A stretch of DNA of 64,000 nt from IMG/VR virus record IMGVR_UViG_3300006329_000001, positions 62,001 through 126,000 of that record; one strand, 5' to 3'. The notes beneath the pieces are model-generated. The model saw nothing but the letters and a program-made list of their open reading frames with translations, was not told the DNA's origin and ran no database searches. Positions 4,455-36,742 of this stretch are shown piece after piece. Both the position numbers and the translations under genes were made by a program. Position 1 is the first letter of the stretch; each line of letters starts with the position of its first letter. The stretch is from a virus.

Positions 4455-4458
4455 TGAT

Positions 4459-5994: not shown

Positions 5995-6016
5995 CTTAGC
6001 AGTTTAACCTTCCTTT

Positions 6017-6024: not shown

Positions 6025-6028
6025 TGAC

Positions 6029-9405: not shown

Positions 9406-9413
9406 TATTTATG
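9406..9413 (-). promoter_or_regulatory. T4-type late promoter-like box CATAAATA
   Basis: The minus strand reads CACATAAATAAAACTG, overlapping the stop codon of the YHYH gene and lying 23 bp before the ATG of the 500-aa fibre-like gene. Box and spacing match the one before gp8. Confidence 0.5.
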
Positions 9414-11004
9414 TGGCATCGAACGAGATACCAGTAGTATCCAACGATACGTTGGTACTTGAGAAGTCCTCAGCAGTTTGACCGCCACCAACACCTGTCA
9501 CAGTGAGAGTTGCAACGTCAGTTGTTAGAGGAGAGTTAGTTGCAGGGGTTGCACCCACAGGTCCTGTGATAACACATCTGTATTTGTATCCAGACATGTA
9601 TGACAGAGCAGTGAATGTAAGACTATTAGCAGTAGATCCTGTGATAACAGCAAATGAATATCCACCATCTGTAGATCTGAACCATTGATAAGTCTTAGGA
9701 CCATCCTCAGGACTAATAGATGCAGTAACAGTAAATGTAACTGATGAAGCAACTTCCACTGTAGCACTCTGAGGTTGTGCACCAAGCAATATAGTAGCTG
9801 GTGGTGCCTCACCGCCACCTGCAGGAGGTGCAGGAGGTGTAGCAGCACCATCATTATCTGGTTTCTGCAATACTTCTCTAGTAGTTAATCCAATAAGATA
9901 TGGAAACTGAGGAACTAAATTCTGTTCAGAATCTAATTGAGTAGATAAGAAATATGCATAAGTTCCATTAGGAAATTCAGGTGTTACTGCAAATCTACCA
10001 TTATGGTAATCAAGTGTTCCTAATCCTTCTTGGTATTCCCAATCTTGTATAAGTGATCCTGCAGGTGGATTCTGCTGAGTAGTACCATAAGTAGGTCTTC
10101 CATCTGCTTCCTCTGATTTAACTCTATATGAACTACTTGCTACTGCAATATCAGAACTATTATTCCATGGACTACTATAGATGTAAGGACCATAAACAGG
10201 GAATCCATCAAAAGCAATTCCAACCATTTTAGAATGTCCATCAGGATGTCTTAGATTGTCACCGTTATACTGACTGGAACCATAATAATCATTATATCCT
10301 GCCATTACAGAATTTGCCTTCCAACAAGAAAGGAAATCTGTATCATGATAATGATATTGACCTGTATTTTCAGGATGTCCACCACATGTATCATCACCAA
10401 AATCTACAACAGCATCTTCGAAATGTGCGTTCCAGTTAAATCCAGTAGGAGGGTTACCACCTGCACCTGCACTAGGATTAAAGAAGACGACACCGTTAGA
10501 TGCAACACCAATAGCACCTAAAGGTACTGCAGCTCTTGCATTTCTTTGATCAAAATATTGATAAGTTCCACTATATGTCTCTCTAGTATAATCAACAATC
10601 AACTCAAGATTGGTTGATGTTGCTCTCCAAAATTCTCCAGAAGCAACTGTCTGTTGAGTACCAGTATACTTAAATACTTGCTTCTTTTCATTAGCAGTTC
10701 CTTCATCCAATATGAAAAGGATTCTATCTCCAACTTGTATCGAACTTCCTAATAAAGCATTATCTGCAACAGATATAGGGATACTAATTACAAATCCATT
10801 TTGTGAAAAATTAGCATCATCAAAAGTTCTACTAATACCAAACGTACCACCCCTATAATACCAAGAATGCTCAAAGTCTTGCTCTGTTACATTGTTGGGA
10901 TTATTTACATTAGGAAAGGTACCAAAAGTAACGGGGTTGGGGAGTCCATCCCCGTCCACCGTTATTACTTTGGTTCCTTGATTATATGTTGATGTAGCAG
11001 CCAT
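9409..11004 (-). CDS. YHYH-domain virion protein with C-terminal Ig-like domain
   Basis: 531 aa. The central domain (about residues 180-380) carries the signature tetrapeptide in GQYHYHDTDFLSCW at about residue 215, then HPDGHSKMVGIAFDGFPVYG and GTLDYHNGRFAVTPEFPNGT, the hallmark blocks of the YHYH family. After a Pro/Ala/Gly linker (TPPAPPAGGGEAPP), residues ~400-505 form an Ig-like domain (QPQSATVEVASSVTFTV ... YQWFRSTDGG ... YKYRCVITG). Such domains on virions are usually thought to aid surface contact. It lies 7 bp downstream of the giant ORF, which carries a degenerate copy of the same YHYH region and also ends in an Ig domain, so the two genes may have exchanged parts. Confidence 0.82.
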   Translation of the reverse strand: MAATSTYNQGTKVITVDGDGLPNPVTFGTFPNVNNPNNVTEQDFEHSWYYRGGTFGISRTFDDANFSQNGFVISIPISVADNALLGSSIQVGDRILFILDEGTANEKKQVFKYTGTQQTVASGEFWRATSTNLELIVDYTRETYSGTYQYFDQRNARAAVPLGAIGVASNGVVFFNPSAGAGGNPPTGFNWNAHFEDAVVDFGDDTCGGHPENTGQYHYHDTDFLSCWKANSVMAGYNDYYGSSQYNGDNLRHPDGHSKMVGIAFDGFPVYGPYIYSSPWNNSSDIAVASSSYRVKSEEADGRPTYGTTQQNPPAGSLIQDWEYQEGLGTLDYHNGRFAVTPEFPNGTYAYFLSTQLDSEQNLVPQFPYLIGLTTREVLQKPDNDGAATPPAPPAGGGEAPPATILLGAQPQSATVEVASSVTFTVTASISPEDGPKTYQWFRSTDGGYSFAVITGSTANSLTFTALSYMSGYKYRCVITGPVGATPATNSPLTTDVATLTVTGVGGGQTAEDFSSTNVSLDTTGISFDAT

Positions 11005-11011
11005 GTTCTAT

Positions 11012-14000
11012 TTATTGGAAGATCTGAGTAGGTAAGAAGTTAGAGATGATTGTCGCACCAGTCTGAACTGTGAGGATCACAGAGTTGGAATATACAGGTG
11101 AAGCACCTGCAGCAGTTATCGCAACACGGAACTCATCACCATCATCTGCCTGTGCGGCTGAAGGTGTACTGTAAACAGAACTGGTTGCTCCAGTAATGTT
11201 AGCCCATGCAGTCTCACCATACTGCTTACGCTGCCACTGATAGTTAAGTGGAGTAGTTCCAACTGTACCATCAGAAGACTTGATGAATGCACCGAGAACA
11301 GTAAATCCTGCAGTCTGACCTTGGTTAACTGTTACGTTAACTGGTTGTGCTGTGATCTGAATGTAGCCAGGAACAATAACGATTGGGTTACCTTCGTTGT
11401 CAGTTCCTTCACCTGCGTAGGTATCAAATCCTTGGTTAACAGCAGGTCCTACTGGTGGAGTCCAGTCATCAGGAACTTCAGTCTCGACTGTAACTTCAGG
11501 ACTAGAGTATCCAACACCTGCAGTCTTAACATCAATTCTTAAAAGACCCATTAGTGCACGAACACGACCATCAAATCCAGAGGAAGATACAACATCAACG
11601 TTTGGACGTGATGTATATCCATCACCAGGAGAGGTGATTATTGCAGTATTAATTTCACCTGTTGTGATAGAAGCAAGTGCTTCTGCGTTACGTCCCTTAA
11701 CAGTTCCTGTGTATTCGAAAGTAATCAAGGAGTTGGAAGATTCGATCAACGCAACTTCACGATTCTCATTCTCACCCTCGATTTGTAGTAAGTCACCTGC
11801 CTCAATAGGAGGTACGACTGTAGCAGCAATAACGTCAGCATCAGAACCAATGTATGAGAAAGCAACGAATGTTGATCCCGCACGAGGAACTTCAGCAAAA
11901 ATTATTCTAGAACCAACAAGTTCGTAACCTACGCCTGGTTCCTGAATAACACCATTCAGTGAACAAATGATATTGTTCTCAGGAAGTATGGTACTAGAGC
12001 TAACACCTTCAGTTAGAGTTAGTGAGTAGAATCCACCTGCGTAACGTAAGTTAAAGGAAGATCTTAATGAATCAAACTCGAAGGAGATATCATCTAACTG
12101 ACGTAATTTACCAACGTAGTATCCGATGAATTCTGATCCAACTGTAGGAGGTTCAGTAAACTGAATCTGATCAGAGAATGCAGTGTATGCAAAGTTTGCA
12201 CCAGGTGGTTGTAGGATACCATTAACGAATGTTAATAGGTGACCTGCAGGATCTGGGAAGTAAGATTCACCGTTATTTACAGTTAACTTAAATGTAGTTT
12301 GCTCACCATCAAATCCTCTGAAGAATCTGTTACAACGTCCGACTAGACCCTTAGATTGTGTTACACCTGCAGACCAATCAGCATCAGAAATAATTGTTAA
12401 GTCAGATGGGAAATCACCAACTACATCTTCTAACCAAAGTCTACCAGTTGTACCGATAACACTCTTACCAGAAACCCTACCATAACCACTTACAGCATTT
12501 TCAGTAACACCATTTGCTTCTGCAAGGATAATTGGGAAGTTATTAAGGTTCTCAAATTTACCTAGTGCAGTACCACCACCAACTAACCAGTTAGAATCAG
12601 GAGTTACAATTTCACCATTGGAGTCAGTTCCATATGGTTGTAAGTTTGCAATCCACATCTTATGTGGTACTGGAGGAGTTGCTTCAGCATCAGGTGCTTG
12701 GTACTTAGTAACAACAGCAGTGAATCCTGGTTCCTTAATAATTGTACCTTGTAGTAAGTAAACTAAATCACCTGCGTTAAAGTCACCACTGTAACCACCA
12801 TCACGAACAATACTAGCAATATCTAATTCTATTGTAGAAACAGCATGTACATACTGATTAAGTTCTAATGGTTCGAAACCATCAGCACGAATATCTGCAA
12901 TGTCAAGAATCTTATCTGTGATAGATCCGTAAATTATATCACCATCTTTAAAGTCTTCTTGGATTGATTCGATATCGATTGTGATACGTCCACCAGTATT
13001 ACCAACTAGAGCACCTTCAGAATTTTCATAAGAAACGATATCTGCTTGAGCAGCATTTGTCTTGTTAAAGACTTTTTCACCAGTAGCAAAATTACCTCTA
13101 TCGGTGTTGATCAACATACGAGTAACACCTGCTCCATTGATAGAAGCAGTCTGTCCACTTGTTGCACCTTCGATAACATCATTATCAGAGAATGTTCCAG
13201 TTAGAGATTCTACATAAACGTAACCCTCATCACTCTGGTCACCTGTTAGAGGTGAAGTCTGAATAACTACTGCATTGTTAGCACCTGCACCTTGTTTCTG
13301 TACAGTCTCACCATTTGTAAATCTAGCAGTAGCAGCATCAATATTAAACTTGTAGTATAGTTTAACAATACTTGCTTCGTTATTTCTAATTCTAGTAACT
13401 TCAGCAAGTGCGTTAGATGTAGCACCAATTAGAATGTCAGCAACGTTAAATCCTGCACTAATTGGTTGTTCCAAATCACGCATTGGATATTGTGCAGCAG
13501 GTAAAGAAATACCAGAACGTACAACTGTTTGTAATCTTTGTTGACCAGTTAGAGATTTGTTTAACTGGAATAATCTATATCTTGCATCATGCTTAATTTC
13601 ACGAGCAATTTCGAACCAATCTGCAGTTGCGTTAAGAACATAGTAGTATGTCTGATCCTGTAAACTTTGTTCGATCTGACCAGATGCAGGAACATAAGCA
13701 ACAATATCACCACGGAAGAAGAAGTTAGGACGTGTAATCCTTACAACACTTTCTCTTCTTTCGAATCCAACTTCGATAGTTGGAGTCAATAGAATCAATT
13801 CTGGATCAGTGTTATAATCTTCACCCTCATCATATAGATTTTGTAAGTTAGTAACATGAGTACTATTGATATAATTAACTAAGTTGTTAGAAGGAGGTTG
13901 AGATCTGTTTAAACCATGGTACGCAAGGTTTAGAGAACTATCAATTCTAAACTCTGTACTTTCCCAATCGTACTCAAATCTATCAGGGATAGCAGCACTA

Positions 14001-17000
14001 TTTGTAGTATCTTTGTAGATATCATATCCAGACCACTGAGAAGTATTATTCTGATCATACAATGTACGTTTTACATACTCACGAATTCTAGTTGTGTAGA
14101 ATAGTAAGTGCTGTCTAACAACAGTTGGGAATGCGATAAAGTTACCTTCACCATCAAACCAAGTGTTAACCAACTTAAGCATACCTTGGTTACCACCTGT
14201 ATTCATGTCATACAATAATGCATGAATCATATCATCAGCAAATTGCTTGTCTGCACCAGTACCAGGATATTGGTTAACAGTTCTATCGTATGCCTTGTTA
14301 ACAATTGCGTGCTTATTAAAGAGAAGATGTCTTGCACACTTCTTATCAGACTTAGATCCACCACCAAGTGTATTGAGTAATACATCGAATAATGTATCAG
14401 TTGCAGACGTTACATTATAACAAGTAAATGTCTGATAGTTTTGGTTAAATCTGAATGGTGGAATCTTCTCGATAGCATCCAAGTGACTTCCACCACCACC
14501 TTTAGCAAGATAGATTGTGTCAATGATGATTTGCATCAAAGATTCTATATTTGCTGCAGCAGTTGGACATGTTGTATTCCAATCTCCTGCATCAGCACCA
14601 TCAGTATGGAATGTGATTGATACATCACGTTCTGCCATTTCAGGAGCGTACTTAACTGGCCAAATCATTGGTAGAGATTTAGTAATCGTACCATCAGTTA
14701 GAGCTGCAGGTGTGTTAATTGCAGTAGTATAGATTGCCATCGAAGTTGTGATAGCAGATGCAACATCAGCACACTTAGGATTATTAGTGTCAGCAGTAAT
14801 TACATAGTTACTTGCACTATATGGTTTAAAGTCAAGATCATTGTAGAATGATTGCTTATACTTGTGTCCACTTCTAGGATATGTCTTCTGTGCAGTATTA
14901 CCATCTCTTGAGCATGTGAATGTCAAGGAGTTAGGTGCTAACTTAACAGATGTTCCAGTGAATAGATCATGTGAACCAATTGTTAATGCTAAGTATCCAG
15001 TTGCAGGATCGTAAGTAGCATTAGTTGGTGTGTAAGTGACGATTGGTGATTGACCAACATCAACAGTAATTGTGTTACCTGACTTAGCAACGATAGGCAT
15101 TGGTCTATCGAAAGCAGGATCCTTAGCACGAGGATATGTATGATTAGTTGTGTAATCATCTTGTGCACAAGTGAATGTTAATGAATCAGTTCTGATCTTA
15201 ACGTTTGCACCTGCTCTAACAACACCACCAGAAGTTGCAGATACAAATGAATGAGTTGTAGTGTTAGTAGAAGGAATATTTTCTAGAACTTGTACATCAA
15301 ATGTATTTGTTCCTACGTTAGAAATAGTCAACCAGTTTCCACTTGCAGGGTCACTTGATCTTGGATAAGAATGATTACCTGAACCTTGTGTACATGTGAA
15401 GGTTAATGAATTATCAGCAATGTTAACTTTGTCTCCATTGTTCCATCCATGACCATTAATAGTTAAGGTCATTACACCTGTATTTGGATCATATGCAGCA
15501 CCAGTAACTGTCTTCGCTGCACTTGGTCCTTCTAGTGTGTTTGATCCAATATCTAATACTAAGTGTCCAGTACCTGCATCATATGTTGCGTTAGAAACAT
15601 TAAAGTCTACAAACGGTGTTGAGGTTACGTTAACAGTTATTGAGGTTGATGTGTATGCAGTTATGGATAATGTTTGACCAGATGCATAATCAGTAGATCT
15701 TGGATATCCATGAACTGTGGAGTTACCATCAAAATCACAAGTGAAGTTTAATCCATTATCATCAATCGTGATTGTGTTGGAATTAGTTAAGTTGTGAGCA
15801 GAAGCAAAGGTAAGAATTAATTCACCAGTAGTACCATCATATGTTGCTCCATTAGGTGTCAACTCAGTAGGTGCACCACCAACATTGACACAGTTAGTTG
15901 CAGCACTTACAAATGTATGATCGTATGCACCACCAGTCATTACTGCACCAGGTAGAGCACTTACAAATTGATGCTGATAATTACCACCAGTGATTAGAGC
16001 ACCAGTTTGAGCACTTACAAATGCGTGAGTGTACTGATCGTTAGGACCAGAAGCACCAACTTGTAATGTAACTACACCTGAAGGATTCTGTCTTGTAATA
16101 CCATTGGTTGTAGCTGATACAAACTGATGAGTGTAATCACCACCAGTGTGGATAGCACCTGCAGTTGCAGATTTAAAGGTATGCTGATAATTACCACCAC
16201 TAATTACAGCACCAGAAACTGCATACTGGAAGTAATGAGTTGTGAGGTTGGAGATAGCACCAGATCCATCATTTACATCTAATGTAATTGTTCCATCTTG
16301 CTTATGAAGACCATTAGCAGCGAATGATTGGAATTGATGTGTGTACTGATCATTAGGACCAGAGATACCAACTTGTATACTGAAGTTATTGTTATCAACG
16401 AATGTTACTGGTAACCACTCATCATATACTGGGTCAGTTGTTCTTGGATATGAGTGATCGCTAGAATTACCATCTTTATTACATCTAAATGTAACTGCAT
16501 TAGGAGCAATCTTAACCATGTCACCTGCATAAGTTACTCCATTAGGAGAAGCAGTTACAAAATTATGAGTTGTAGTATCAGAAGATATACCAACATTAAC
16601 TTCGAATGTATCGTTAGTTACGTTAGTAACTTGTAGCCACTTATCGAATGGATAATCAGATCCACCAGGAGCAGCAGAACCATACTGTCTAGGATATGAT
16701 TTAACAGCACTGTTACCATCTAATCCACATGTGAATGAAATTGAGTTAGCAGCAATCTTAATTCTATCGTTATTCGCAAAACCATGATTAGTGATAGTAA
16801 CAACCATCTTACCATCAGCAGGTGTGTAGGTTGCACTTTCGATAGTATGTGTTGTATGACCCGCTAAACCATGGTTGTTCATGGTTAGTGTCATTACACC
16901 AGTAGATGAGTTGTATGCAGCACTTGTTGGTGTATGTGTTGTATGTCCAACAGCATCAATATTAATTGCTGTATTCCATGCAGGGTCAGGACCATTAGGT

Positions 17001-20000
17001 GCTGAAGCACGAGGATAAACGTGATTTGTTGCTTGACTATCTTCGTCACACTTAAAGACTAAAGAACTTGTTGCTATCTTAATGCTCTCTCCAGTTCTAA
17101 ATTCATGAGCACCAATTGATAGAACGATGTTACCAGTATTAGGTGTAAAGACTGCATTGTGTACATCATAATTCTTAATAACAGATGCACCAACATTAAC
17201 TGTGATTGTAGTCTCAGTAGTACCGATAATCTGAACTGGTTCACCACTAACAGGATCAGTTGTTCTTGGGTAAGTTTTAGTTGAGTTATTTCCATCCATC
17301 ACACAAGTAAAGGATAGAGAATTATCAGCAATCTTAATATTAGTTCCTTGACTTAATGTATGGTTACCGATAGTTAAGATTAAGTTACCAGTATTAGGTT
17401 CGTAAACTACGTTAGTAGGAGTAAACTTCTTAATCTTAGAAGTACCAACATTAACTGTAAATGTATCATTAGTCTTAGAAATAATAGGTAACCATTGTCC
17501 ACTTACAGGATCAGTTGATCTTGGATATGTGTGGTTACTGTAGAAATTATCCATTGAGCAAGTTAATGTCAATGAATTATCAGCAACGTTAATCTTGTCT
17601 CCTACACCAAATCCATGTCCTGAAACTGTTAGAGTTAATAGACCTGTACCTGCATCATAAGCAGCATTAGTTGCAGTATGAGTTGTAGATGCAACATCAA
17701 CAATATCAATAGCAGTATCGAATGAAGGATCAGCACCATAGTTAAGTGCTAGAGATTCATTTCTCATTACCTGAATCGCTAGATCTCTTGCATAGTTACA
17801 TATCCAGATTGCTTCAGTAGCATGAGTTAGACCTTCATTAACATAGTATTCAGCAGCACGAACAATCTTGTTGTTACCACCATGACGTAGGTTCCAAACC
17901 ATAGCGTCAAGGAAGTCACTTAAGTCATGTACACAGTTGATATTTCCACCAGGAATATTAAGTGAAGGATATTGTACTTTAGCAGCAGCAATAGTTTCTT
18001 CAGCAATAACACGGATATTTCTTTCGATTACATCAGCAGCGTTAATGAATCTATCTTTAACAGCATTACGTTCGTAAGTAGAAACGTCAACGTTGTCAAA
18101 GGACTCACTACCGCCACCAGTTATACCATCGTCATCTCCTGTATCTGCATCTGGGTTATAGATGTAAAGGTTCTCACGACCAAATCCATTACGGATAGTC
18201 ATAATTGCAATTTCAGTTGCAATCTTAAGAACACTAATACCTGCTTCATCTTCACCAGGAGCAACTCCAACATTACATGTAATTTGACCAGTCTGTCTCT
18301 TAAGTCCATCTGTGGTAAATGATACAAATGAATGAGCAGAAGTATTAGTAGAAGGAACAGTTGTTAATACCTGAACACTGAAAGTATTAGCATCAACATA
18401 AGTTACAGGTAACCATGCTTTGTATGCAGGATCTTGAGGTCTTGGATATTGCTTAGTCTGTGAATTACACTGTAATGAAAGAGCATTTTCAGTTATCATT
18501 ACATAATCATTTGCCTTCGTAATACCATTAGAAGTTGCAGACTTAAATGTATGTGCAGTTACGTTAGTAGAAGGAATCTCTGCTAGAACCTGAACATCAA
18601 AAGTATTATTAGTTACGTTAAGAATAGGTAACCATGAATTTGAGGCAGGGTCAGTAGAACGAGGATATGTATGATCAGATACGTTGTTGTCTAACATACA
18701 TGTAAATGTTAATGAGTTATCAGCAATCTTTACACTATCACCAACACTAAATCCATGGTTAGTGCAGGTCAATGTCATGATACCTGTCTCTGGATTATAA
18801 GTAGCAGTTTCTACAGTATCCTGTGACTGACCAGTAAACGGATGACCATTTAATGTAAATGCTACAACACCTGTATTAGGATCATAAGTAGCACCTGTTG
18901 GTGTATGAGATGTTTGTGATACCTCAGTAATTTCTACAGATGTATTATAAACAGGATCTGTATCACGAGGATATGAATGCTCAGTTATATAATCATCTCT
19001 ATCACATGTAAATGTTAATGCTTCTTTCTTAAATCTGAAACTCTGTCCAGTAACTAATTGGTGTGCACCAATAGTCATTTGTAATGCACCTGATACAGGG
19101 TTGTAATCAGCAGCAGATACGTTGTAGTAAACTAAAGGAGTTGTACCAACATTAACTGTAATTGTTGATAATGTATATGCAGTAATAGCAAGAGACTTAC
19201 CATATGCAGGATCACCTTTACGAGGATAAGTATGATTGTCCTCATTCTGGTTCATTTCACAAGTGAAGGTTAAACCATCTTCTGCAATCTCAATAGTATT
19301 AGAAGAAGTTAATCCGTGACTTGGAATTGTTAAAATTAAGTTACCAGTAGAAGGTTGATAAACTACGTTTTGTGGAGTATGTTGTCCACCACCATTATCA
19401 GTAACAGCATTAGTTGCAGCAGTTACAAATGTATGTCCATAGTTACCACCTGCTTCGATAGCATTTAGAGATGCTCTAACGAATTGGTGTGTATGCTGAC
19501 GACCATTTAACTGAATAAGATTATCAGTCTCAGGATCAAGATATAATGCAGCAGCTTCATATGTCTTACTGTTACCACCCTTTCTAAGGTCATGTGCAAC
19601 AGCCTTTAATATATCAAGAACATCATCTACACAATTCTGAGCACCATCAGGAACAGTGAAGTTAAGGAACTTAGAAAGATCGTTCATTGTATGAACTGCT
19701 TCCCAAGCAATTACATTAGCGTTCTTCTCAATCAAGTGAGCAGCATCTAATACTCTGTTATTAGAATCATAAGCATCAGGATTATAACCCTCTGGGTCAA
19801 TAGTGATTGTTGGATCTCTATAAACTGCAAGGTCTGTGTACTGCATTGGATAGTAGTCATCCTGATATACAGTTGGAATATCTTCTCCAAGACCTGCAGC
19901 AGTTTGACCTTGAGGTAAGAGAGTGTTGTTGATACACTTCTTACATAACATTCTTACATATTCATATACATCCAATACAGCACTTAGTTCATTGTCAACC

Positions 20001-23000
20001 GAATAAAGTTCGTTATTAGCGTTGAGGAACTTACTGGTGTTGTACTGGATAGCATTAGTTCCACCTGTAACCAAGTCAGCAATAATAGCAGGAAGAATAT
20101 AAGTCTTGATTTCGAAAGTGCACTTATTAGGATTAGCGTTAGGGTTTTGATAGAAGTCATAAGTTGTACTATTAATATTTGCTTGGTAGGTTGCTTCTAA
20201 CCAACCAACTGCTTCAGCAGCGATTGCATCACGGTTCTGCCAAATTAGATCACCTGCATCTCTGAATCTCTGACCTGTAGGTCCAAGAACATCTCCAATA
20301 TCATCACATAATTTAACAATAGCATCCTGAATCTCTTGTGAAGCAGGAGATGAGAAGTTGTTAGGTATACGAAGTATATCAGTATACTGAGTACCACCAT
20401 AAGTCTTAAGATCTGAACTTGTAGTTGTAATTACATAATTACAAATTGGTGCTAATTCTCTATAGGTGTAAATTGACTGAAGAATCTCATTAGCGATATG
20501 CTCTAATCCTTCGTATGCAGTTAAGTAGTTTCTAGCAGCAAGTGTACTGTTATAGTTACCACCATAACGTAAATCTTGGATAACACCTTTAAGAATAAAC
20601 TCTTTAGTATCTCTTAAACAGAAACTTGTACCCTGTTGAGGACCAACTCCATCAGCAGTATCACCAGGCATCACCAAATCAGGGAATTTTGCCTTCATCT
20701 TCCAGACTGCAGTTTCAGCAATCCATGCTCTGTTAAGTTCTAAAATATCTGCTGCTTGACGGAAAGCATCTCTTGATATATCAACTTCCTCAACAATAAC
20801 TTCACGAGTATCATAATCAACTTTAGTTGCTTGAGAAGCAGAATTAGTAGTACCAGTTAGAGTTGCATATGCTTCATTATTACTCATAATGATAGGCAAC
20901 TCATTACTCATTGAGAAGGTAATACCAGTTGTAGATGTTGGGAATAGAGTAGAAGGTGTAAAGGATGAAGTATACTTAGACTCTCCACCATAGAATACAA
21001 CGTTATCAATATATCCAACATAGTTGTTACCACCGTTCCACTCAGCACCAATAGTCATCTTACGTTCACGGTAAGTATTAGTGTCTGTGTAATCAGTACC
21101 AACTTGTGAACCATTAACCCAAAGTTTGAGTATTTGACTGGTTCTAGTCATGGCAATGTGATACCATGTATTAGCACTCATACCATGAGCACCACTAATC
21201 ACATCAGAACCATTAATCTTATACTTCAGGTTACCTGAATCAAAGTAAAGACTTGGAGAATTAACTTCTGAAGCACCACTTGTACGCATATCAAGTAGGT
21301 ACTTAGTAGTGTTCATTGCAGTTGTAGGACGTACCCACATCTCAATGGTAAAGTCTGATGTGCCAAATGCAGGTATAGTGGATAATGCATATGAGAGGTA
21401 TGCTCCTGAATCAAGTTTCAGGGACTTCGTTCCACTACGTTTTTCTATAGCTGTTAGTCTTGCTGAAGCAGGATATATGGTAGTAGCATTAGTAACTGCA
21501 CTCTGGAATGTATGTGCATAACTACCACCAACTTCTACAGCATCTGCGATTGCTCTTACAAATGTATGTGGAGTAGTATTAGAAGAAGGAGCAGAACTTA
21601 ATACGTTAATAGTAATAGTTCCATCTTGTCTAGTAATGTTGTTAGAACCAGAAGTTACATATGTGTGAACATATTGCTCATCTGCAGGAGATTCACCAAC
21701 CTGAACACCAATATTATTATCATCGATTACAGTAACATCTAACCACTGATTATCGACTGGATCAGTGCTTCTTGGATATGTGTGATTACTACCATTACCA
21801 TCTTTAGTGCAACTGAATGTTAATGAATCGGTAGCAATCTTGATTCTGTTACCAGTCTGCATTCCATGGTTAACAATACTAAGTTTAAGAGTACCGTTAG
21901 AAGGTTCATAAACTGCATCAGATGAAGTAAATGTTGCTTGTACACCAATAGAGGTTACATTAATCTTAGTATTGTATACAGGGTCTTGTCCACCTGAAGG
22001 GTTACCTGAACCTGCAACTCTAGGATAAGAGTGCTCTGTAGCATCACTATCTTGAGTACAAGTAAAGATCAATGAATTTGGTTTTAATCTAATACTGTCA
22101 CCAACATTAAGATTATGGTTACCAACATTAAGAACAGTAGAACCTGTGATTGGATCATAATCTGCACCAGTTACTTGTAAGTATGTCTTAGGAGTAGCAC
22201 CAACATTAACTGTAAATGTATTAGTTGTAGTTTTTAAAATCTGAAGTTGTTGTCCTTGTCCAACTGGATCATCAGCACGAGGATAGTCATGGTTGGATGC
22301 ATTACCATCCATTGCACAACTAAATCTCAATGCATTAACAGCAAACGATACTTTATTACCTACAGAATAACCATGGTTATTAAGAGTAAGAGTTAACTGT
22401 CCAGTATCAGGATCATATGTTGCTCCTGTAGGAGTTATATTAACGTTAGATCCACCAGGATTATTAGTAATCTTAGTATTGGTGACATACTCTTTAAGTT
22501 TAAAGATACCAGTAACAGTTTGAGCATACAACCATCTTAAACCAGAGTTTGCACCCTTAAGTGGGAATGATGCACCAGTAGTTGCTCCTATAATTGTGTC
22601 ACCAGGAACGAAGAATCCAGTACCACCTCTATCCTTATAAGCAAACTTGTAAACACGAATGTTCTCATTCTCTTGATAAGTACCATCTGAGATAACTGAG
22701 AGTGCATTGATATTATCAAGGTTACCACCTGCCTTAACGGAATTAGCAATAGCAGATACAAATGTATGTGTGTAGTTACCACCAGAAATTACAGCACCTG
22801 CAGTTGCAGATACAAATGTATGAGCATCAGTATTAGAGATAGCACCCTGTCCACCGTTCACATTAACTGTGATTGTGGTTCCTGTTTTAGAAATGATAGG
22901 AAGTGCAGTGTCATACGCATAGTCAGCACCACTAGATGTGTTAGCACCATTAGCACGAGGATATAATCCTTCACCACCACCGTTGTAAGCACACTGGAAT

Positions 23001-26000: not shown

Positions 26001-29000
26001 GGAATTTGTGACTTAATAACATATGAGAAGTTCTGATAGAAGTAAGAGTCCTGAATCTTTTGTACGATCTCAGAAGGTTTACCAACGTCATCAATAAATC
26101 TACCAGATGTTCTTGTAAGAGCATCAATATTAAGAATACCTCTTGCAATGTTAACATTGTCAATAATACCAGATGCACGAGATATAACACCTTGTACTTT
26201 ACCACCTACAACAAATTCACCACTTGGATTAACAATCTTAAGAATTTTAGGACCAATTTGCCAACCGTCATTAATAGAAACAGTACCGAAGGCATTTGCT
26301 AATTCATAAGATTCACCTTGGAATACTTCTTCAGATTCTAAGAATCTTGAGGTTTCTACAACAGCAGTTGCTTGACCACCGAATACCTCAGTAAGAAGAA
26401 CCTGTCTTCCATCACCTTGTGTTAAGAAGGTAATAAAGTTACCAGAATCAGCATCAGCAGGTGTTAACGCAAATCTAAGTTGATCAGATTCTAGTGAGTT
26501 AGCATCACCTGCAATAGCATAGTAAGTCTGTGTAGATGACAATGAAGTCAAACCAACTGAACTTGGTTTTGGTAGTTCACCAATTGTAGTACCGATATCT
26601 TCTGCACGGAACTGTACAGCAGCACCAGTTGTAATACCATGTGGGAAGTTAAACTGTAGATAGTTAAGGTCTAAGTTAACAACGTATGTAAATTCTGATT
26701 TTAGAGTAACAACTGGTTCTGAACTATATCCTGCACCTGGATCTTTAACGATGATCTCAGACAGTCTGTTGTTTTTAACAACTGCCTCAGCATTAGCACC
26801 AGTTCCACCACCACCTTCGATTACAACAACAGGAGCAGATGTATAGCCAGCACCTGGATTGGTTATCTTGATCTGTGATAGTATTGAGGTATTAAAGAGT
26901 TGTAAGTTAACTGGGAATGCAATCTCAGGACGTAGAGTATAGTCATGAGAGTAACCATAACCAAATTCATTGTTCTTAAGAGTTTTAATCTTACCAATCT
27001 GTGTACCAGTTAAGAATATAGAAGCACCTGTACCTTCAGCAGGTATAACAACAGTTAATTCTGCACCAGAACCAGAAAGTGTAGGTCCAAGAATTCCTGG
27101 TATACCATCTACATCGATAACACCAGTTGTGTATCCAGAACCAGGATCAATAAGAGCAACATCACTGATTGTTCCTGAATCAGTCTCAGCATCAATAGTA
27201 ACTGTGATGTTAGCTAGACCACCTTCACCATCACCTATAATAGGAACCTGTGTATATACGCCAGGTGCATATTCAGTACCACCGTTAGTAATTCTTATCT
27301 TCTCAATCTTACGATCAGATGCAACCTCTGAAATAATTGGTAGTTTCTTATAGAATCCACCTGGAGAGATCAACTTAATTGTGTTAATAGGTCCAATCGC
27401 TTTCTTAGAAGTTGTGGAATAGTATGAATTAGGTTTATCCTGATCATCCAATCCAATCATTGCAGTATTAAATTCTGGTTCATGCTCTAATGGGAATCTG
27501 AACTCAGTATCACTAATAATCGCAGCAATATTAAATGTACCATCATAAGGAGTCTTAATAACATCAATAAAGGACTCAGAACCAACTGGAGAGTTAGTAG
27601 ATAGTGTTCTACTAGGATCAAAGTAGTATGTGATGTTAGTTACTTCACCACCAACTGTAAACTTAACTATAGGAACTTCGGTAGAAGAAGATTGACCAGG
27701 AATTCCTTCACGTTCGATAACGTTAAATGAGTATTCTAGTTTAAACTGGTTATCTTGAGAGAATGATAAGTAGTAGTCTTGGTTAGAAGCATCACTCATA
27801 TCAAAGATATAAGAGTGGTTTCTTACCAACATTAGAGTTGGGTGCTTAGATGATATCTTAACACTAGCAATAGCAGAATTATCAAATAAAGGATCAGATA
27901 AAGCAGTTGCCCTCATTCTATAAGTAAAGTCTCTTGATGAGAAGACTTCTTCTACGAAGAATGATCCATCAAACTGTGTGCCCTGGAATCCCTCAACAAA
28001 GAGGATATCTCCTGCACTAAATCTATGTGCACTAAGAGCATTACAGTATATAAGATCAGTCCTAGTCTCTCCTGTGCGAATAATATCCTTATTAAGAGTA
28101 ACTACTAATTCTATTTTCTTAACTGTAGTTACGCCATTAATTTGACCAATTTTAGGAAAATCTGTCTTTGGCCCTGCCGTTACACTACCACCAAGCGAAA
28201 TTACATCACCAACTATGAAATCAGATCCAGGATATACCTCAAGAATCTTAACTCTATAATCACCAGGATCATAAGGTCTGAACCTAGCATATTGTGATAA
28301 TGCATCATACTGTTGCTGCCATGTCCAAACTACAGTACCATCAGTTGCAGTACCAGAAGTATGTGTAGGTGCAACAGTACTAGAAACACCTGCAGTAGTA
28401 CACTTATATCTCTGTCTTCCCCAGTAGACTTCATCATTTAATGAGAATGACTTACTAGGACTCCATAAAGGTATAGTTGGTTTTGGCCAAGCATGTTCTA
28501 TTAGATCAACTTCTATAGGACCAGCAACACTAATAAACTGCCATAAAACACCACCATCGGTTACTATACCAATCTCATGAGTAGGTGCAGTAACACCAGA
28601 TGTAGCATTGTTAGTTGCTTTGTATATCTTACCTGCGTTGTAAACCTGTGTATCAACTGTATATGCTTTACTTGTTACCCACTGATCTTGTGTTCTTGCT
28701 TGTTCGAATACAACATCATCAATAGTATTCTCCTCACCAATATCATTTTGATATAGATCAGTAGTATCATTACTAAATGTACCATATATCTTACCAACCT
28801 TATACTTATTACCAACACCAGGTGTGTCTATTGTACCAGTTGGAACCTCAACAATAGTACCAAATCCCTGAACAATACCATTCTCATTTGTCTGCTGTAG
28901 AATTGTTCCTTTAGTAAATTTAATATCTTGGTTAAATGTAAATTCCTTAACTAAGTCAATCTTCTGGAATCCTGCATCTCTGACGTAGAACTTCGCCATA

Positions 29001-32000
29001 GGAACTGCAGTTACCTTAACTTTTCTACCAAGTGGTGAAGGTATTGTAGAAGTCTTAGATGCAAATGTATGACTAGCACTTGTAAAGTTGTAACTACCTG
29101 GTGCAAGTTGTGATATAACATCAGAGTAGTCAAGAATCTGTAAACCAGATGAACCTTGAGTCCATACTGTTACAACAGGATTACTTAAAGTATTAATGTT
29201 AATCCCTGATGTTTCTGTAAACTTAAGTGCTTTAGTATGAGTAGTTTCAGAGAATGCACTATAGTCACCTCTCTTATCATGCTGACGATCAAACTTAATA
29301 ATGTTAACTCTAGAGTCAGTAGAAGTGATTCTATAACGTTCAGTAGGAAGAGTAAATGTTCCACTCCATACTGAATTAGGATCAATAACAAAATCATCAA
29401 TAGTACCCAATAAGCAGTTACCTGTAGCAGGTGTTGTCTTATTAGCACCAACATATACATCATTAAGACCAATATTTGTTACTACAGTTGCAGTACAAAC
29501 CTGTGCACCATCAAAGTAAACAGAATACTTATATGAACCTAAGGTTGGTTCTTCCTTAACTATTGCCCAATGATGGAATGAAGATGACCCCATCGCAGTC
29601 CAATATGTACTACCAACTGATGCAGTAGTAGATCCACCACCACCCTGAGGTGCAATGGTCATCTCAATCTTACCTAGATTAGGACTAGAAGCATTACCAT
29701 CAACAGTAACAACAAGACTATTGCCAGTTGCATCATCAATAGTAAACATCTCAACCTTCGGATTGTTCGAAGCATGAGATGGTTCCATGTAAGACCATGA
29801 AGATACAGTCCAATTAGTTGTTATTCCAGCTCCTGCTGCCTTCATATAAGCAGGACCACCAGAGAACTTCAGAGCACCTGCACCAAACTTAAATTCTGAG
29901 GTATTATGAATAGCATATGCAGCATTTGAGAAACTTGTAGTTACAAGTGCTTGTTTTGTGCTATCTTCATCTAAATCATTCTCATTCTCAAAACGAGCAA
30001 CATATGTCTGTACTGGAAGTTGCTTATTACATGGAATAATAACATCACCAGAGTTATCTACTTGGTGACTCCATGCTGACATACCAATATCATCAGTATC
30101 TTCGATATTAGTACTCTTAAGAAGACTTCCATCATACTTAAAGTTCATTGCAACGATTTGACGATCATTATCCCAATATTTCAGATCAGCAACGACACTT
30201 ACATTACCAAAGACATCTAAATTGATACCTGCATGTTTAACTGCTTCGAAATTGCCACTAGGAGCAATAATCTTAGAAAACTCGTATGTTGGACCTGCTG
30301 CAGGATTGGTAGAAAGTTGATCAATAGGTATCTTAAAGAATGCTATACCATAATTCTTAGTTCCATTCCACATATCACATATGAAGAATAGATCGTTCCA
30401 CTCATCAAGAATGAACTGTGGTCTCTGTACACTACCACCTGCTATAGCAAGTCTCTTAGTATAGTTAAGTTCGATGTTTGCACCATCGTACTCCATTTCA
30501 CCGAATAATAAGTCATTATTATCAGCATCAACACCAGTCCAAAGCATTTTATTGTTTCCAATGAACTTAAGTTGGTTCATTGACTCACCTTCGTCATCAG
30601 AAGCAAATTTACGCTTCTCTACAACGTCACCTAGGTTATTAAGTTGCATAACCCAGATATCGTTAGGATCTGGAGAGTTAGTATCAGTCCAACCGCAAAT
30701 ATAGACTCTTTGCTCATCATCTAGGTGAATATCACCTGCATAGTCTCTTCTAGCAGATCCAGAGACACCTGCGATCTCTTTTTGCCATCTGACAATACCT
30801 TCAGGTGCATTTGCATTATTAAACCCAGATTCGTACTTAGCAACTAAAATATCGGGATTATAAGTCGCAGTTGTCTGAGATTCGGTTTCACCGATAATAT
30901 AGATCAATTCATTCTCTTCAGAAGTCTCATCAAGGTACATTGACTTCCAACGAGCAACTTTATTGGATGCAGAAGGTAAAAGTGTTCTATCCCAAACTAA
31001 AACACCCAAATCAGTAAATTTAGCAAGGAATGCAGAAGAATCACCATTAACTTGAGTTAATTCACCACAAATGTAGATATAACGGTCTGTGGTTATCTGA
31101 GAATCGAATATTTGGATTTTATCGGTATCTTCGTAATATTCAGATAACCAATAGTAAGTTTTCTTGTATTGTTGTGGATGAGAGACTCTAATCTGTGGAG
31201 GAGCGTCTACATCGTATCCAAAACCACTATTAACGATATTAACGCTTCCAACCTTACCAGTTGTCTCATCTAGAACAATATTAAAGTTAACGTCTTGTCC
31301 AGAAGAGGTAATGATCTCATAAGTCGGTGGAATCTGTGTATTGTAACCAATACCCGATTGTGTTACTGTAATAGTCTCAATACCAGTAACAACTGACATA
31401 TAGTAACGCTTGTTAGTATTATCAGTAATAACTCGACTGTTAACAATAATTTCGTCTTGTGCGATAAGTTCATGGTCTGTAGCAGTGGTGATTTTACCGT
31501 ATGGGATGTCATTAATGACTTCCTTTGTATATGCAGCAATGTCTCGGCCCTGGACCGACTCAATAATGGCAGAAGCTCCGAACCCGTCTGTACCTGTGTT
31601 ATCGAAGAATAAAGTGTCATCAACCTGATAAGAAACACCTGCGTTCTCAACAACGAATCCATCAATCTGTGCAGACTCGAATTTAGTGGTTGTATCAACC
31701 TCAATATCAACTCTTGACTCTGCTGATACTCTAGGGAAGTAATCATAGATCTGTAGTGCTGCTTCTTCTGTTATTGCTTGTTCTGTTGCAATTTCAGCAG
31801 GAGATATGATTGCATCACCATCTAAGTCCTCAATTTCGAAGATAAGAAGATCACCTTCTCTTTCAGTCACAAATGAGTCTGCCTGTTGGTTTGGTTGACG
31901 CTCAATATCAATATCAACGTTTACATATGGATCTCTGAATCTTGCAACGTCTTGAGGGATGTTTTCTTGTGTTGCAGTTTGTGATAAGTTCCATGTATCA

Positions 32001-35000
32001 ACAACTGAGTTAAAACTAGGACCAATGATGTATGGGAAGACTGGTAAACCTGCATCTGACTCATCAATGGTTATAAAGTATGCATATGTACCTGCAGGAT
32101 AGTCTGGAGTCTTACAGAAACGTCCATTATAAGCATCTAGGTCACCTTGTTGGAATGTGTACTTATAATCGTTTACAAAGTATCCTGCAGGGTATGTGTC
32201 TAGTGAAGGACCATCAATACGAGCAGGATTTGGGTTTGTATCCTCATCTTCTACAATTTCTGTCTTTAAAGTGTAAGAAGAACGCATTCTTCTAATACCA
32301 CTGTTCTGATCAGTAGGATCAATGTATCCATAAGGACCATAGATGGGATTACCATCAAATGCCCATCCAATGATAGGAGAGTGACTAATGTTAGAAGGAA
32401 CTTCTTGGAAACGGTTAGTTTCTGGATTTAAGAAGACGTTATCACCAATTACATAACGTAATTCCTTAGGATCGGAAACGTGAGCATATTCACCACCATA
32501 TTGGTTATTAAAACCAGTAAAGACGTATCCTCTTGCTATATCATACTTTCTCTTAAGAGATCCATCAGTATTTTGTGCTGTAGGGTTAGCAGGATCAGGA
32601 TCTAACTGATATTCTATATTTTTGTTCCACTGGAAGACATCTGCAGTAAATGTTGCTAATTGACCAACTGCTTCTAATCTAACAGTTGTCATTCCTTGTG
32701 TATATCCAACACCCTTGTTAGTAATCGATACTGAGATAACTTTACCCTTATCTTCTCCTAAAGTACCAATAACAGCAGTTGCTTGAGCACCAAATCCATC
32801 ACCATTGACATAAACCTTAGGTGCTGATGTATAAGCATCACCAGAGTTAATAATAGCGATAGATACGATTCTACCGTTAATAACGATAGGTTGTGCTAGT
32901 GCTCCTTCACCAGAATTAAGTTTTATAGTTGGTGTAGAAGTATATCCGACACCTGGGTTAGATAATGTAACTGCACTGATTGCACCTCTTACAGAAGCAG
33001 TTGCAAGTGCTCCAGAACCTTTTCCACCAGTAATTGATATAGTTGGTTGTGAGGTATATCCAGTTCCTGGGTTTTCTACAAGAATTCTTGTTACTCTACC
33101 ATTAGTAACAACCGCTTGAGCAGTTGCACCGCTACCACCACCTCCAACGATAGAAATTAGTGGTTGTTCTGTATATCCACTACCTTCTGCAGTAACTTCG
33201 ACTGAATCTAGTGATCCATTAACAGTTACAGTCGCTGCAGCACCTGTACCGCCACCACCAGTGATTTCTAAGGTAGGTCTTGATCCTGCATCATAATCTA
33301 CACCTTCATTAGTGATATTAACAGTAGTTAAAGGACCAAAGGTAACAAATTCACTAGATTTGTAAGACCAAGCAGAAACACCGTTAACCCAAGCACCAAT
33401 TGGATAGTTTGCACCAACTTCTGTTCTTGTAGAGATAGTTTCGACAATTCTAGGGAAACGAAGTAGTTTTCTTTGGTTTCCTGGAATCATTGCAGACCCT
33501 TGGAAAGGACCTACCTTATAGTTGGGCAATCCAGACGCTGCAACGTAAACGTAGTTAGTATTAAAGAATGCGTTCTGTATATTAGAGGTAAATAACGAAA
33601 TTACTTCATCAATAGTGGTTTCAGTTGACTTTCCTCTATTAAGGTCAACAGAAAGAAGTATATTACCCTGTGGAACAATGTCCATTGGGGTAGGAATGCT
33701 GTATGAGAAGGTAAAGTCGTCTAAACGAGAAGTAACCTCAAAAGTACCATTATAAACAGCAGGGTTTGCACCATAAATGGTAACTTGATCTTCTACAAGC
33801 AAACCATGTGGGTTAGAGCAGACAACAGTAGCAGTTTGGTTGTTAAGACCACCAGGATTGATGGAAGTAACGCTAATTAGCTTCTTAACGTTGTATAGCC
33901 ATGATTGGAGTCTCTCATCTTCACCAGATGAACCTAGAGCAGCAACATTTAACTTATCTCCAGGCAAATAGTAAGATCCACTGTCTTCTAATTCAGTAGT
34001 ACCCGCTTCAGCAATACCAAGTACTCTTAACTTGACTTCAGTTGACAATCCACGGTTAACATAGACAAAAATATCAGAATGAATGATTGTACCAGGATCC
34101 CAATCCTCTACAACACCATTTTGAGACCTAGTACACTCAATAAACTGGTTTAGTGACTTTTCTTTGTACTGAACAGTCTCTTCATCATCAATAATGATAG
34201 TACCGTTCTTTTCTGGCCATCCAATTGTACTATCAACCGTAATTATGTTACCTGTGGTTGTTAGTGGTTCTACAAGGTTGGTTTTATAAGGAATCTTAAA
34301 CTCACCAGTGAGTGTTTCTTCAGATATTGCTAATTCATAGATTACGTCAGTTCCCTCAATAATAGAAATGACGTTTTCGATCAAAACGTTAGCATCTTTG
34401 ATGTTTTGGTCAACAGGATCTGCATATTGGACTAATTGAGCATTTCCTAAATCTGCAGGATCACCAGAAATCAATTTTGCACGCAAAATGGTGTCAACAA
34501 CCCAAGAAGCATCGGAAGGTTTGATTAATTCATCTCTAGGATAGAATATATCAACTTCTTCACCAAATAGAATCTTAAAGAGGTATTGAGCAGCAGTTTT
34601 CGTACCTTTAGAAAGGTAGAAGTCCTTAATTGTCTTAATTACCTGAATCGGATTGACTTGAGTGTAGTCAATATTGATTGTAGGCATATATTGACGACGG
34701 AACTTGTCAAATACCTGTGTAATAATCTGTGCATCAAGGTTATGTACAACTGCACCAGTTGCATGGTCACTTTGCCTTAGTTGTTCCTCCTTAGCAAAGA
34801 TCTGATTACCAAATTTATCAAAATCAACAATTTCAGATACACCTCTAGCACATCCTTGTAATGAAGATGGTTGATATTCCTTACCAGTAGATAAAATACT
34901 AAATCCAGTTACTTCTCCAAATCCAACGTCGCAAGATGCCTGTGCTGCCAAGGGTTCTGCGATGTAAACTGTGGGAGGTTCAGTTGTAGAGTAACCTGTA

Positions 35001-36742
35001 CCAAAGTTTATAATGTTAATATCTGTGATAACACCGTTAAAGACGGTTGCTGCTGCTTCAGCACCAGTACCACCAATTGATTCTCCTAGTGATCCTTTAC
35101 GATCATCTACAATGTATACAGAAGGTGCATCAGTATAACCAGTACCACCAGTTAATAGATTTATGTTAGTAACACTACCATTTGCTACGGTTACATCAAG
35201 AACTTGTGCACCAATTGGTTGTACAACTCTAGCTCTTGGTGGAGTGGTATAACCACGTCCTCTGTTAGTGATAGTAACTGCAACAATTTCGCCATCTGGA
35301 GACACAGTGCACTCAGCAACAGCATCAACACCATCTGTCGGAGCCTTGTCGATGTAGATGACAGGAGGATTACTATAGCCGATACCACCATCAGTAATAC
35401 TAATAGATCCAGCATTTAAACGTCCCTCCGAGTCAATAGTTGGGTCACTTATTATAGCACCACTTGGGTTAACAAAGGAGATAGCGGGTATAAAATCGTA
35501 GCCTGAACCAGAATTTGTAACTTTTATACTATCTACTTGTCCAGTTGTATCATTAACAGTAATTTCTGCTTTTGCACCTGAACCATTAGTCATATCACTA
35601 GGTTCAGTGATTTTAACCTTAGGAGGGTTATAAGAAGTGTAACCTTGACCACCGTTGATCAACTGAATGTCCTTAATACCTGCGACTAGGGTTCTTGCAG
35701 CAGCACCTTCACCTGTACCTACTGATGTAACGGTAACTTTAGGTGCAAAATTTAGTTCATATCTCTTACCACCATCTTTGACCTGAATTTCTTCGATTTG
35801 ACCATTTAGACCAACACGAGTAACCGCTTTAGCACCTGATCCAACAGAAGGTGAAACATATTCGATAGAACGAATATGAAAAACATCCTGTGGAGTGATA
35901 TTTACAAAATATTTGATTCTAGTGTTGTTATCAGTCAACACATAGTCAATATATGGTCTTAATAGAACACCATTACGGTTAATGATAAGACCAATCTCTG
36001 AAATTGGAGAATATGGAAGATTATCATAAGTAATGGTCATAGAATCTTGACCTGCTAGATCAGCAACAGCAGGGAAGACCAATTCTTTAATTACAGAATC
36101 AGCAAAACCAATGTAATAAAGGATTCTAGTAGAACCAACTACATCAGTACCGATTCTAGTTCTAGGAGCAGTAGTAAAGGTAATATTAGTACCACTAATC
36201 GTATAATCCACATTAGGGATCATACTCTGATTGTAGACTATGACTGCTAAGTGCTCTGCTGAGACAGGTGAGACTGGAGTACCTAAGAACTTGAGTGGAA
36301 AGGTTGTAGTGACATCATCAAAGTCTAAAAATGGACTTTCTAGTTCTTGTCTCTTCTTATTAAATTCTTCTAGTGATAATCCTGGAGTTAGAATAGCATC
36401 AGGACCACGAACCGTATTTTGGTAGTAAATTACCTCATTATCAATCATCACAGATCCATCACGATCCATGAATCCATCAATTGACTCAACTTCTATTAAA
36501 CTATTTGTAGCATCAACGTCCTTAATCAAAGTAGTGCTAGATGCGAGCACTTTTTGATCATATTGGTCAATGTCAAGGTAATCTAATATATTGTTTAATA
36601 AGTCGTACGGACGACCTGTCTTCTCTTGAGATTTATAGTACTCAAAAAGAAACGAGACAAATTGCTCGTCTTCGTGTTTGATAAAGTCAGGTAACTGACC
36701 TTCGACTCTATCAGATATATTAACAGAACTTAGAGTTTGCAT
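11012..36742 (-). CDS. Giant multidomain virion protein (8576 aa) in the gene 7 position
   Basis: One uninterrupted frame of 8576 codons sits between gp6 (4 bp upstream) and the YHYH gene, where T4 has baseplate gene 7 (gp7 ~1030 aa). Approximate layout: 1-300 N-terminal baseplate-like region; 300-600 Gly-Tyr repeats; 677-755 helical block with [20 protein letters not shown]; 1130-1350 second Gly-Tyr array; 1459-1575 YHYH-like domain without the tetrapeptide; ~1638-1650 EF-hand-like loop [12 protein letters not shown]; 1853-2265 beta-propeller-like repeats; 2265-2470 LamG-like; 2684-2811 two CBM5/12-like units; 3118-3348 third Gly-Tyr array; 4150-7520 a long array of YPR beta repeats and GGN helical repeats with a second LamG at ~5090-5267; ~8170-8290 fibre-adaptor-like LNGVIQxPG units; 8459-8576 Ig-like domain. 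No protease or glycosidase active site was recognised. It probably makes a long baseplate-attached fibre or adhesin. Confidence 0.85.
14160..24290 (-). repeat. Seven helical Cys...DLxxGGN modules in the giant protein
   Basis: A helical segment with a Cys, a following Asp-rich helix and a DLxxGGN turn recurs at residues ~4156, 4316, 5372, 5538, 5701, 6268 and 7468-7518. Examples are [57 protein letters not shown] and [21 protein letters not shown] partner helix with CKRAMRNLL or [10 protein letters not shown] often follows. The modules bracket the YPR arrays. I know of no named family for them. Confidence 0.6.
14845..23305 (-). repeat. Array of 18 YPR beta repeats inside the giant protein
   Basis: Within residues ~4480-7300 a unit of about 75-90 aa recurs. 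Its consensus is YDPxTGxLxLTIxxHxL, then [20 protein letters not shown], then a HxYPRxTDP core, and finally WLPI...TFTVNVG. I counted 18 YPR-bearing copies. Some are partial, and short SAHTFVSAxxxAVxxGG segments separate others. Copies differ from each other at many positions, so they look like old, diverged duplications and not an assembly stutter. Each core carries one Cys (FTC). The array is interrupted by a LamG-like domain and by the helical GGN repeats. Confidence 0.8.
26700..27390 (-). repeat. Gly-Tyr repeat array 3 of the giant protein
   Basis: Residues ~3118-3348 contain units such as [38 protein letters not shown] and [15 protein letters not shown]. Their form is x-G-x-GY-x3-P-x-(V/I), followed by GGGGTGAxAxA. 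Confidence 0.7.
32690..33345 (-). repeat. Gly-Tyr repeat array 2 of the giant protein
   Basis: At least six consecutive ~35-aa units (residues ~1132-1350) read [91 protein letters not shown] and [10 protein letters not shown]. The regular period suggests a beta-solenoid. Confidence 0.75.
34950..35840 (-). repeat. Gly-Tyr repeat array 1 of the giant protein
   Basis: Residues ~300-600 hold about eight units of the same type, for example [55 protein letters not shown] and [19 protein letters not shown]. Confidence 0.72.

Follow-up and report, generated by a model that had tools for sequence, protein, structure and literature searches.

The baseplate protein gp7 of phage T4 has been described as missing from marine T4-like phages: gp7 was reported to be lacking in cyano- and pelagimyophages, with VrlC in its place (PMC7029224), and it was placed in the non-cyanophage core (PMC3037559). 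Here we describe a giant gene of a marine cyanomyovirus, in IMG/VR virus record IMGVR_UViG_3300006329_000001 (162,717 bp), of which bases 62001–126000 were analysed (a stretch of 64,000 nucleotides, hereafter the window). The gene spans 25.7 kb on the minus strand (11012–36742) and, in agreement with an earlier note made from the sequence alone, forms a single open reading frame (ORF) between gp6 and a YHYH gene, with an ATG start, one terminal stop and 0 internal stops, encoding 8576 amino acids (aa) with a predicted mass of 927.7 kDa and an isoelectric point of 4.6. Our results locate gp7 in marine T4-like phages, with its core present and pulled apart by insertions, which bears on both of the reports cited above.

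Homology to the T4 gp7 core

A simple search of T4 gp7 against the giant protein gave no match, and a single-sequence search of PDB with the giant N-terminus returned nothing useful; gp7 was reached only by family profiles. The two proteins were bridged by an ORF of Desulfovibrio phage 7757, residues 12–280 of which align in one piece to T4 gp7 648–888, and similarly to gp7 of RB49, VH7D, avDM6 and IME-CF2 (over a shorter stretch in the last two). The same Desulfovibrio phage stretch matches the giant protein in three ordered pieces, at residues 8–67, 701–747 and 3561–3608, with bridge scores to T4 gp7 and to the giant protein of 47–68 bits vs at most 26 bits for 60 shuffles. The corresponding core motifs, a helical motif, 'DFYxxKGT...LF' and 'FSYxIKS...HPAGF', are contiguous in T4 gp7 and compact relatives and far apart in the giant protein. 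For core pieces 2 and 3, profiles based on 11 relatives and searched against 177,635 PDB sequences had gp7 as their sole PDB match, at T4 positions 730–758 for piece 2 (E 4.3e-6 and 5.9e-5) and 862–896 for piece 3 (E 0.010 and 0.026). Both matches are in the correct order on T4 gp7, while the stretches from which the profiles derive lie ~2,850 residues apart in the giant protein. As judged from these alignments, the giant protein is homologous to the T4 gp7 core.

Gene order agrees with this assignment. The order gp25, gp6, giant gene places the latter directly after gp6, and in cyanophages extra genes may intervene before gp8. The T4 gene 7 position named in the earlier note is thereby joined by homology to the gp7 core itself. 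VrlC as a gp7 replacement was also considered for this locus and rejected: the profiles of core pieces 2 and 3 matched no VrlC, gp6, gp8 or gp10 protein, and the giant protein showed no similarity to VrlC proteins or phrog_358. In HTVC008M and in cyanophages alike, the gene that follows gp6 has the gp7 core and is distinct from VrlC.

Gene integrity, family and virion presence

The earlier note had asked whether the ORF could result from misassembly, and repeat-rich sequence is indeed the usual setting for an assembly artefact or for genes fused in error; no support for such an origin was found. Cultured cyanophage P-RSM6 was a whole-query match at 93.3% DNA identity (megablast, 50,697 phage records), and its protein CPXG_00128 (8573 aa) was 93.6% identical across residues 1–8576 in only 3 aligned blocks. 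A separate 25.9-kb contig at 100% identity had residues 640 and 6345 at an identical distance of 17,115 bp, and dN/dS (the ratio of nonsynonymous to synonymous substitution rates) against the P-RSM6 ortholog was 0.218 overall and 0.06–0.33 across all 21 segments, indicating purifying selection throughout. Furthermore, the frame around core piece 2 was stop-free in 19 virus records, and open frames among those from IMG/VR include 8576, 8581, 9151, 9152, 9152, 7076–7189 and 6622–6973 aa, with truncation at a contig end in one record and perhaps in others. An apparent stop at 3864 aa in one ortholog contig lies 5 bases from the contig end and was not counted as a real split. The full-length ortholog, the identical spacing, the selection regime and the stop-free frames of 6622–9152 aa in other contigs leave the artefact explanation a negligible probability, and we consider it confirmed that the ORF is a real, conserved gene.

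This gene belongs to an already annotated family, with a near-identical GenBank protein from a cultured phage, although proteins of this kind are poorly described. PHROG 701 (6136 positions, 'virion structural protein') matched in all six segments of the giant protein, from model position 3 to 6135, hundreds of cyanophage records match one or the other end, and family members are variously annotated as 'hypothetical protein', 'gp7' or 'baseplate wedge initiator'. The earlier note ranked the protein among the largest of phages; its size is indeed very large, but it is neither unique nor the largest, given the 8573-aa protein of P-RSM6 and the 9152-aa forms in IMG/VR. Some gp7-like baseplate proteins (HTVC008M 33435–36485; PHROGs 701, 4406, 18802, 19630 and 3465) have been given the label 'head closure Hc2' or 'head and packaging', which is likely a misannotation, probably caused by Gly-Tyr arrays held in common. 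A second P-HM1 gene annotated as gp7 (PHM1_095, 28325–33001, T4-GC 511) had no gp7 core segment in the part examined and probably encodes a tail-fibre-like protein.

Virion presence, one of the checks proposed in the earlier note, has been established by mass spectrometry for two close orthologs. The S-SM1 ortholog SSM1_102 bears the tag T4-GC969, which was among the multi-peptide proteins of purified S-SM1 virions (PMC3037559), and S-SZBM1_208 ('baseplate wedge initiator', 6619 aa, 724 kDa) was detected in CsCl-purified particles with 71 peptides, 13.5% coverage and an exponentially modified protein abundance index (emPAI) of 0.41, lying between those of gp6 (0.23) and of the gp8 homolog (1.37) (PMC9146016, including its Table 1). 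These S-SZBM1 peptides are known as totals, with no map along the chain, as would also be seen if a polyprotein were cut into several virion proteins and no 928-kDa chain were present in the particle. We regard such cleavage as quite improbable: all relatives have one continuous frame, with no splits or inteins. Processing is also not known for T4 baseplate proteins.

Repeat units, inserted modules and proposed function

The giant protein contains 18 copies of a repeat of ~104 residues in which a Cys and a Tyr-Pro-Arg motif (YPR) are invariant, and which has no Pfam family and no PDB relative by sequence. Counted with one hidden Markov model (HMM) in 14 orthologs of the clade to which the giant protein belongs (6619 to 9152 aa), YPR units numbered 0, 0, 0, 0, 1, 2, 3, 4, 5, 18, 18, 18, 23 and 23. 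Ortholog length followed 6729 + 104.5n, where n is the number of YPR copies (r = 0.998, or 0.9976 with near-duplicates collapsed; r is descriptive only, the orthologs being related, and the site-by-site result is independent of it). Across these orthologs, the part up to core piece 3 was nearly constant at 3600–3684 aa. Compared with four repeat-free relatives, the giant protein had its extra sequence at the same four places (sites A–D in Table 1), with an empty seam of 0–2 residues in the relatives. The 9152-aa forms had 2, 3 and 4 units at sites A–C, as in the giant protein, and 14 vs 9 units at site D, and in relatives with 1–5 units anchor mapping did not assign every unit to one of the four sites. 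Within this clade, sequence comparison has shown that YPR copy number sets protein length. With sizes of 6.6 to 9.2 thousand residues, these virion proteins are a clear example of size determined by repeat copy number at fixed sites. We found no description of the split gp7 core or of this copy-number ladder in the searchable literature, with most subscription papers outside the search. A 54-bp direct tandem repeat inside the gene (15902–16023, minus strand), coding short 'GGxYxHTFxSA' repeats beside a YPR block, was the clearest DNA duplication of recent appearance in this gene.

An AlphaFold2 (AF2) model of two YPR units was almost all beta strand, with a predicted local distance difference test score (pLDDT) of 82.7. 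Its top-scoring PDB matches in Foldseek include the phi92 endosialidase (probability 0.99, E 0.2) and the ubiquitin-activating enzyme Uba1 (probability 0.87), matches suggestive only of a likeness to the E1-FCCH or endosialidase beta-barrel fold. Among predicted viral structures, the unit occurs, for example, in tail-fibre proteins of cyanophages and in wedge initiators.

Other modules occupy the remainder of the insertions and the C-terminal tail: Gly-Tyr arrays between core pieces 1 and 2; Gly-Tyr arrays, a YHYH domain, a weak propeller, a borderline LamG domain and weak CBM5/12 units between core pieces 2 and 3; and, after core piece 3, a 'LNGVIQxPGxxY' domain, helical units, a strong LamG domain, the four YPR blocks, a conserved C-terminal block and an Ig-like end. 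The modular accretion envisaged in the earlier note is thus seen both as insertions inside the gp7 core and as the repeat ladder, and several of its individual modules were recovered: the three Gly-Tyr arrays as a motif pattern, the YHYH-like region as a Pfam match, and the two kinds of long repeats as 18 YPR beta units and 7–8 helical units. Others fared less well. Only the second of the two LamG-like domains was strong, the first falling just under the cut-off; the CBM likeness was weak and under the cut-off, as was that of the propeller-like region, which had no PDB sequence match; the C-terminal Ig-like domain gave no significant Pfam match but is common to the neighbouring YHYH gene; and the EF-hand-like loop found no family support in the giant protein. 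Pfam matches to 'Phycobilisome' and 'PepQ_N', which covered short stretches of repeat segments, were judged to be chance.

We consider it probable that the giant protein is a gp7-core wedge protein that touches the host through lectin-like modules and tunable repeat arms, in phages for which an absence of long tail fibres has been reported. By analogy with T4, each of the six wedges would have the gp7-like core packed onto gp6. The insertions and C-terminal tail would project outward as six multi-domain arms binding host surface glycans. The LamG and YHYH modules, and less surely the CBM-like ones, would touch these glycans, the YPR copies would act as a length- or avidity-tunable spacer, and the arms would carry at least part of adsorption. 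Host contact is suggested by the strong LamG match, the YHYH domain, the weak CBM5/12 likeness and the YPR fold matching cyanophage tail-fibre and wedge-initiator models. Indirect support comes from S-PM2d081, the 3048-aa S-PM2 ortholog, which gained mutations during 500-day chemostat coevolution with Synechococcus (PMC9910659), and from the nearest relatives, S-SZBM1, S-WAM1, P-RSM6 and P-TIM40, in which long tail fibres are reportedly missing (PMC9146016).

Alternatively, the same wedge protein could carry its extra modules for architecture, enlarging or stiffening the baseplate periphery as a second layer or skirt, or holding other fibres, with YPR units as neutral spacers that make no receptor contact. 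The variation of YPR copies from 0 to 23 among relatives of otherwise constant architecture would fit such a role, as would the domains common to the neighbouring baseplate proteins gp8, orf616 and the YHYH gene product and the lack of visible long fibres in S-SZBM1 (PMC9146016). We find it unlikely, given that LamG, YHYH and CBM-like modules typically contact glycans and that the S-PM2 ortholog gained mutations while coevolving with its host (PMC9910659).

Several observations nonetheless weigh against a gp7-core wedge protein with host-contact arms. Pfam Gp7_helical, Gp7_5th and Gp7_6th, all three of which match T4 gp7, had no match in the giant protein, so we call it a gp7-like core homolog and not a member of the Straboviridae subfamily. 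In the AF2 model of residues 1–780, core helices had pLDDT of ~40–70 and no significant PDB fold match, and the PDB match of core piece 3, taken alone, reaches only E 0.01. Binding by the arms and their number of six are proposals, and no image shows an arm or other appendage. Transmission electron microscopy of S-SZBM1 revealed no long fibres, and its virions contain other candidate receptor-binding proteins, namely S-SZBM1_52, 53, 54 YadA and 200 (PMC9146016). The very long adhesive fibre of the earlier note remains a proposal for this protein, and its adhesive role is one we infer.

More tentatively, and with odds we would place somewhat below even, gp7 itself may be the receptor-binding organ in fibre-less cyanomyoviruses. 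Its core would have been opened at two loops for lectin-type modules, and the repeat arm would be a baseplate-integral, length-tunable adhesin replacing tail fibres, its reach evolving by gain or loss of ~104-residue units at fixed sites. The cyanomyovirus S-CREM2 has a separate long tail fibre of ~4,970 aa, and its wedge gene at the gp7 position is small (~1,940 aa; PMC10665884, Table 3), a single case that agrees with fibre and gp7 size being inversely related. In abundant ocean phages reported without long tail fibres, the giant protein is a specific candidate for attachment to the host.

Upstream of the giant gene, in reading direction, are a PAAR gene, gp25 and gp6, and downstream are the YHYH and Ig gene, a gp9/10-like gene, a Gly-Tyr gene, gp8 and VrlC. 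The neighbouring baseplate genes (gp8, orf616 and the YHYH gene) have YHYH, Ig, Gly-Tyr and other stretches in common with the giant gene, showing that modules have moved between wedge genes; the neighbouring gene 6029–7879 has Gly-Tyr array II in common with it.

Table 1. Features of the giant gene and its neighbours (coordinates in the window; residues of the giant protein).
Feature	Coordinates	Strand	Basis or remark
Giant gp7-like gene	11012–36742	-	8576 aa; ortholog of P-RSM6 CPXG_00128
gp7 core piece 1, N-terminal helical motif (8–67)	36542–36721	-	blastp to Desulfovibrio phage ORF 8–67, E 3e-4; weakest of three
Gly-Tyr beta array I (~300–625), between core pieces 1 and 2	34868–35845	-	motif pattern; AF2 mostly beta, pLDDT ~90
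gp7 core piece 2 (701–747, 'DFYLSKGT...')	34502–34642	-	profile hits only gp7 in PDB, E 4.3e-6
Gly-Tyr array II (~1140–1330)	32753–33325	-	motif pattern
YHYH domain (1414–1560)	32063–32503	-	PF14240 E 2.7e-29; paralogous to gene 9409–11004
Beta-propeller-like region (1860–2260), weak	29963–31165	-	SBBP E 0.0065, under cut-off
LamG/ConA-like domain 1 (2297–2453), borderline	29384–29854	-	PF13385 E 5.1e-6, 27.1 bits vs cut-off 27.6
CBM5/12-like units (2680–2830), weak	28253–28705	-	PF02839 E 9.4e-4, two stretches, under cut-off
Gly-Tyr array III (~3270–3350)	26693–26935	-	motif pattern
gp7 core piece 3 (3561–3608)	25919–26062	-	54% identity to bridging ORF, E 1e-15; PDB profile E 0.01
'LNGVIQxPGxxY' domain, first copy (3672–3740)	25523–25729	-	self-match to 8133–8293, E 4e-14
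Helical repeat units (4078–4385)	23588–24511	-	iterated HMM, unit E-values 1e-8 to 4e-30
YPR insertion site A (4454–4671, 2 units)	22730–23383	-	absent from S-WAM1, S-SZBM1, G013, G014
YPR insertion site B (4762–5091, 3 units)	21470–22459	-	
LamG/ConA-like domain 2 (5120–5252), strong	20987–21385	-	PF13385 E 1.5e-20
Helical repeat units (5327–5758)	19469–20764	-	iterated HMM
YPR insertion site C (5747–6162, 4 units)	18257–19504	-	
Helical repeat unit (6231–6328)	17759–18052	-	E 7.7e-34
YPR insertion site D (6335–7290, 9 units; 14 in 9152-aa relatives)	14873–17740	-	
Helical repeat unit (7468–7561)	14060–14341	-	iterated HMM
'LNGVIQxPGxxY' domain, C-terminal copies (8133–8293), in conserved C-terminal block	11864–12346	-	
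C-terminal Ig-like domain (8458–8561)	11060–11371	-	common to C-terminus of gene 9409–11004 (E 1e-5); phrog_613/4069 matches
gp6, upstream neighbour	36747–38843	-	PF21379 E 2.7e-17
YHYH and Ig gene, downstream neighbour; two domains in common with giant	9409–11004	-	PF14240 E 5.6e-37
gp8 homolog; region in common with giant residues 3134–3289 (E 1e-11)	4459–5994	-	phrog_438
VrlC gene, downstream of gp8, separate from giant	3–4454		phrog_358

Elsewhere in the window, an NlpC/P60-type peptidase gene (44495–44986, PF00877 E 1.4e-5) near the baseplate genes is a candidate cell-wall enzyme. At least five separate 2-oxoglutarate and Fe(II)-dependent (2OG-Fe(II)) oxygenase genes (PF13759) were found at 45571–46206, 53762–54331, 56274–56909, 59301–59906 and 62442–63080, all on the minus strand like the peptidase gene, besides a JmjC-type gene (60567–61265), an unusual pile-up of dioxygenases within 18 kb.

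Comparison with known gp7-position proteins

Proteins at the gp7 position differ widely in length (in aa: Moby 503, phiM12 1007, HTVC008M 1016, T4 1032, S-PM2 3048, Bellamy 4067, P-HM1 4446, S-SSM5 6171, S-SM1 6180, S-SZBM1 6619, S-WAM1 6737, P-SSM4 7312, P-TIM40 7351 and P-RSM6 8573). The closest, P-RSM6 CPXG_00128 (YP_007675165.1, PHROG 701), has the same neighbours as the giant gene (gp25, gp6, the YHYH gene, a gp10-like gene and gp8) and 18 YPR units, differing in ~6% of residues and being 3 residues shorter. S-SZBM1_208, S-WAM1 BOW92_gp159 and P-TIM40 AU107_gp099, annotated as 'baseplate wedge initiator' or 'virion structural protein', share the gene order around the giant gene and are collinear with the N-terminal half (to ~3,800–4,450) and C-terminal ~1,300 residues of the giant protein, the S-SZBM1 ortholog being 71% identical to it across the first 4,450 residues; unlike the giant protein with its 18 YPR units, these shorter proteins have 0, 0 and 5, respectively. 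S-SM1 SSM1_102 and P-SSM4 gp7 are likewise collinear (41–48% identical to ~3,850–4,070, plus the C-terminal block), but have a different repeat region.

The compact gp7-like proteins of Stenotrophomonas phage Moby, Desulfovibrio phage 7757, Sinorhizobium phage phiM12 and Pelagibacter phage HTVC008M have core segments 2 and 3 in order, like the giant protein, with core segment 1 also aligned in Moby, phiM12 and Desulfovibrio phage 7757; they lie at the gp6–gp8 position where annotated and, unlike the giant protein, are free of its insertions. T4 gp7 (PDB 5IV5, 5HX2) shares with the giant protein the three core segments in the same order, segments 2 and 3 lying at T4 730–760 and 861–897, and the place after gp6, but its 640-residue N-terminal half has no counterpart before core piece 1 of the giant protein. 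Between core pieces 2 and 3, T4 gp7 has domain V, of ~100 residues, where the giant protein has ~2,800 residues, and whereas the T4 core is contiguous over ~240 residues, that of the giant protein spans 3,600 residues and is followed by 4,968 more.

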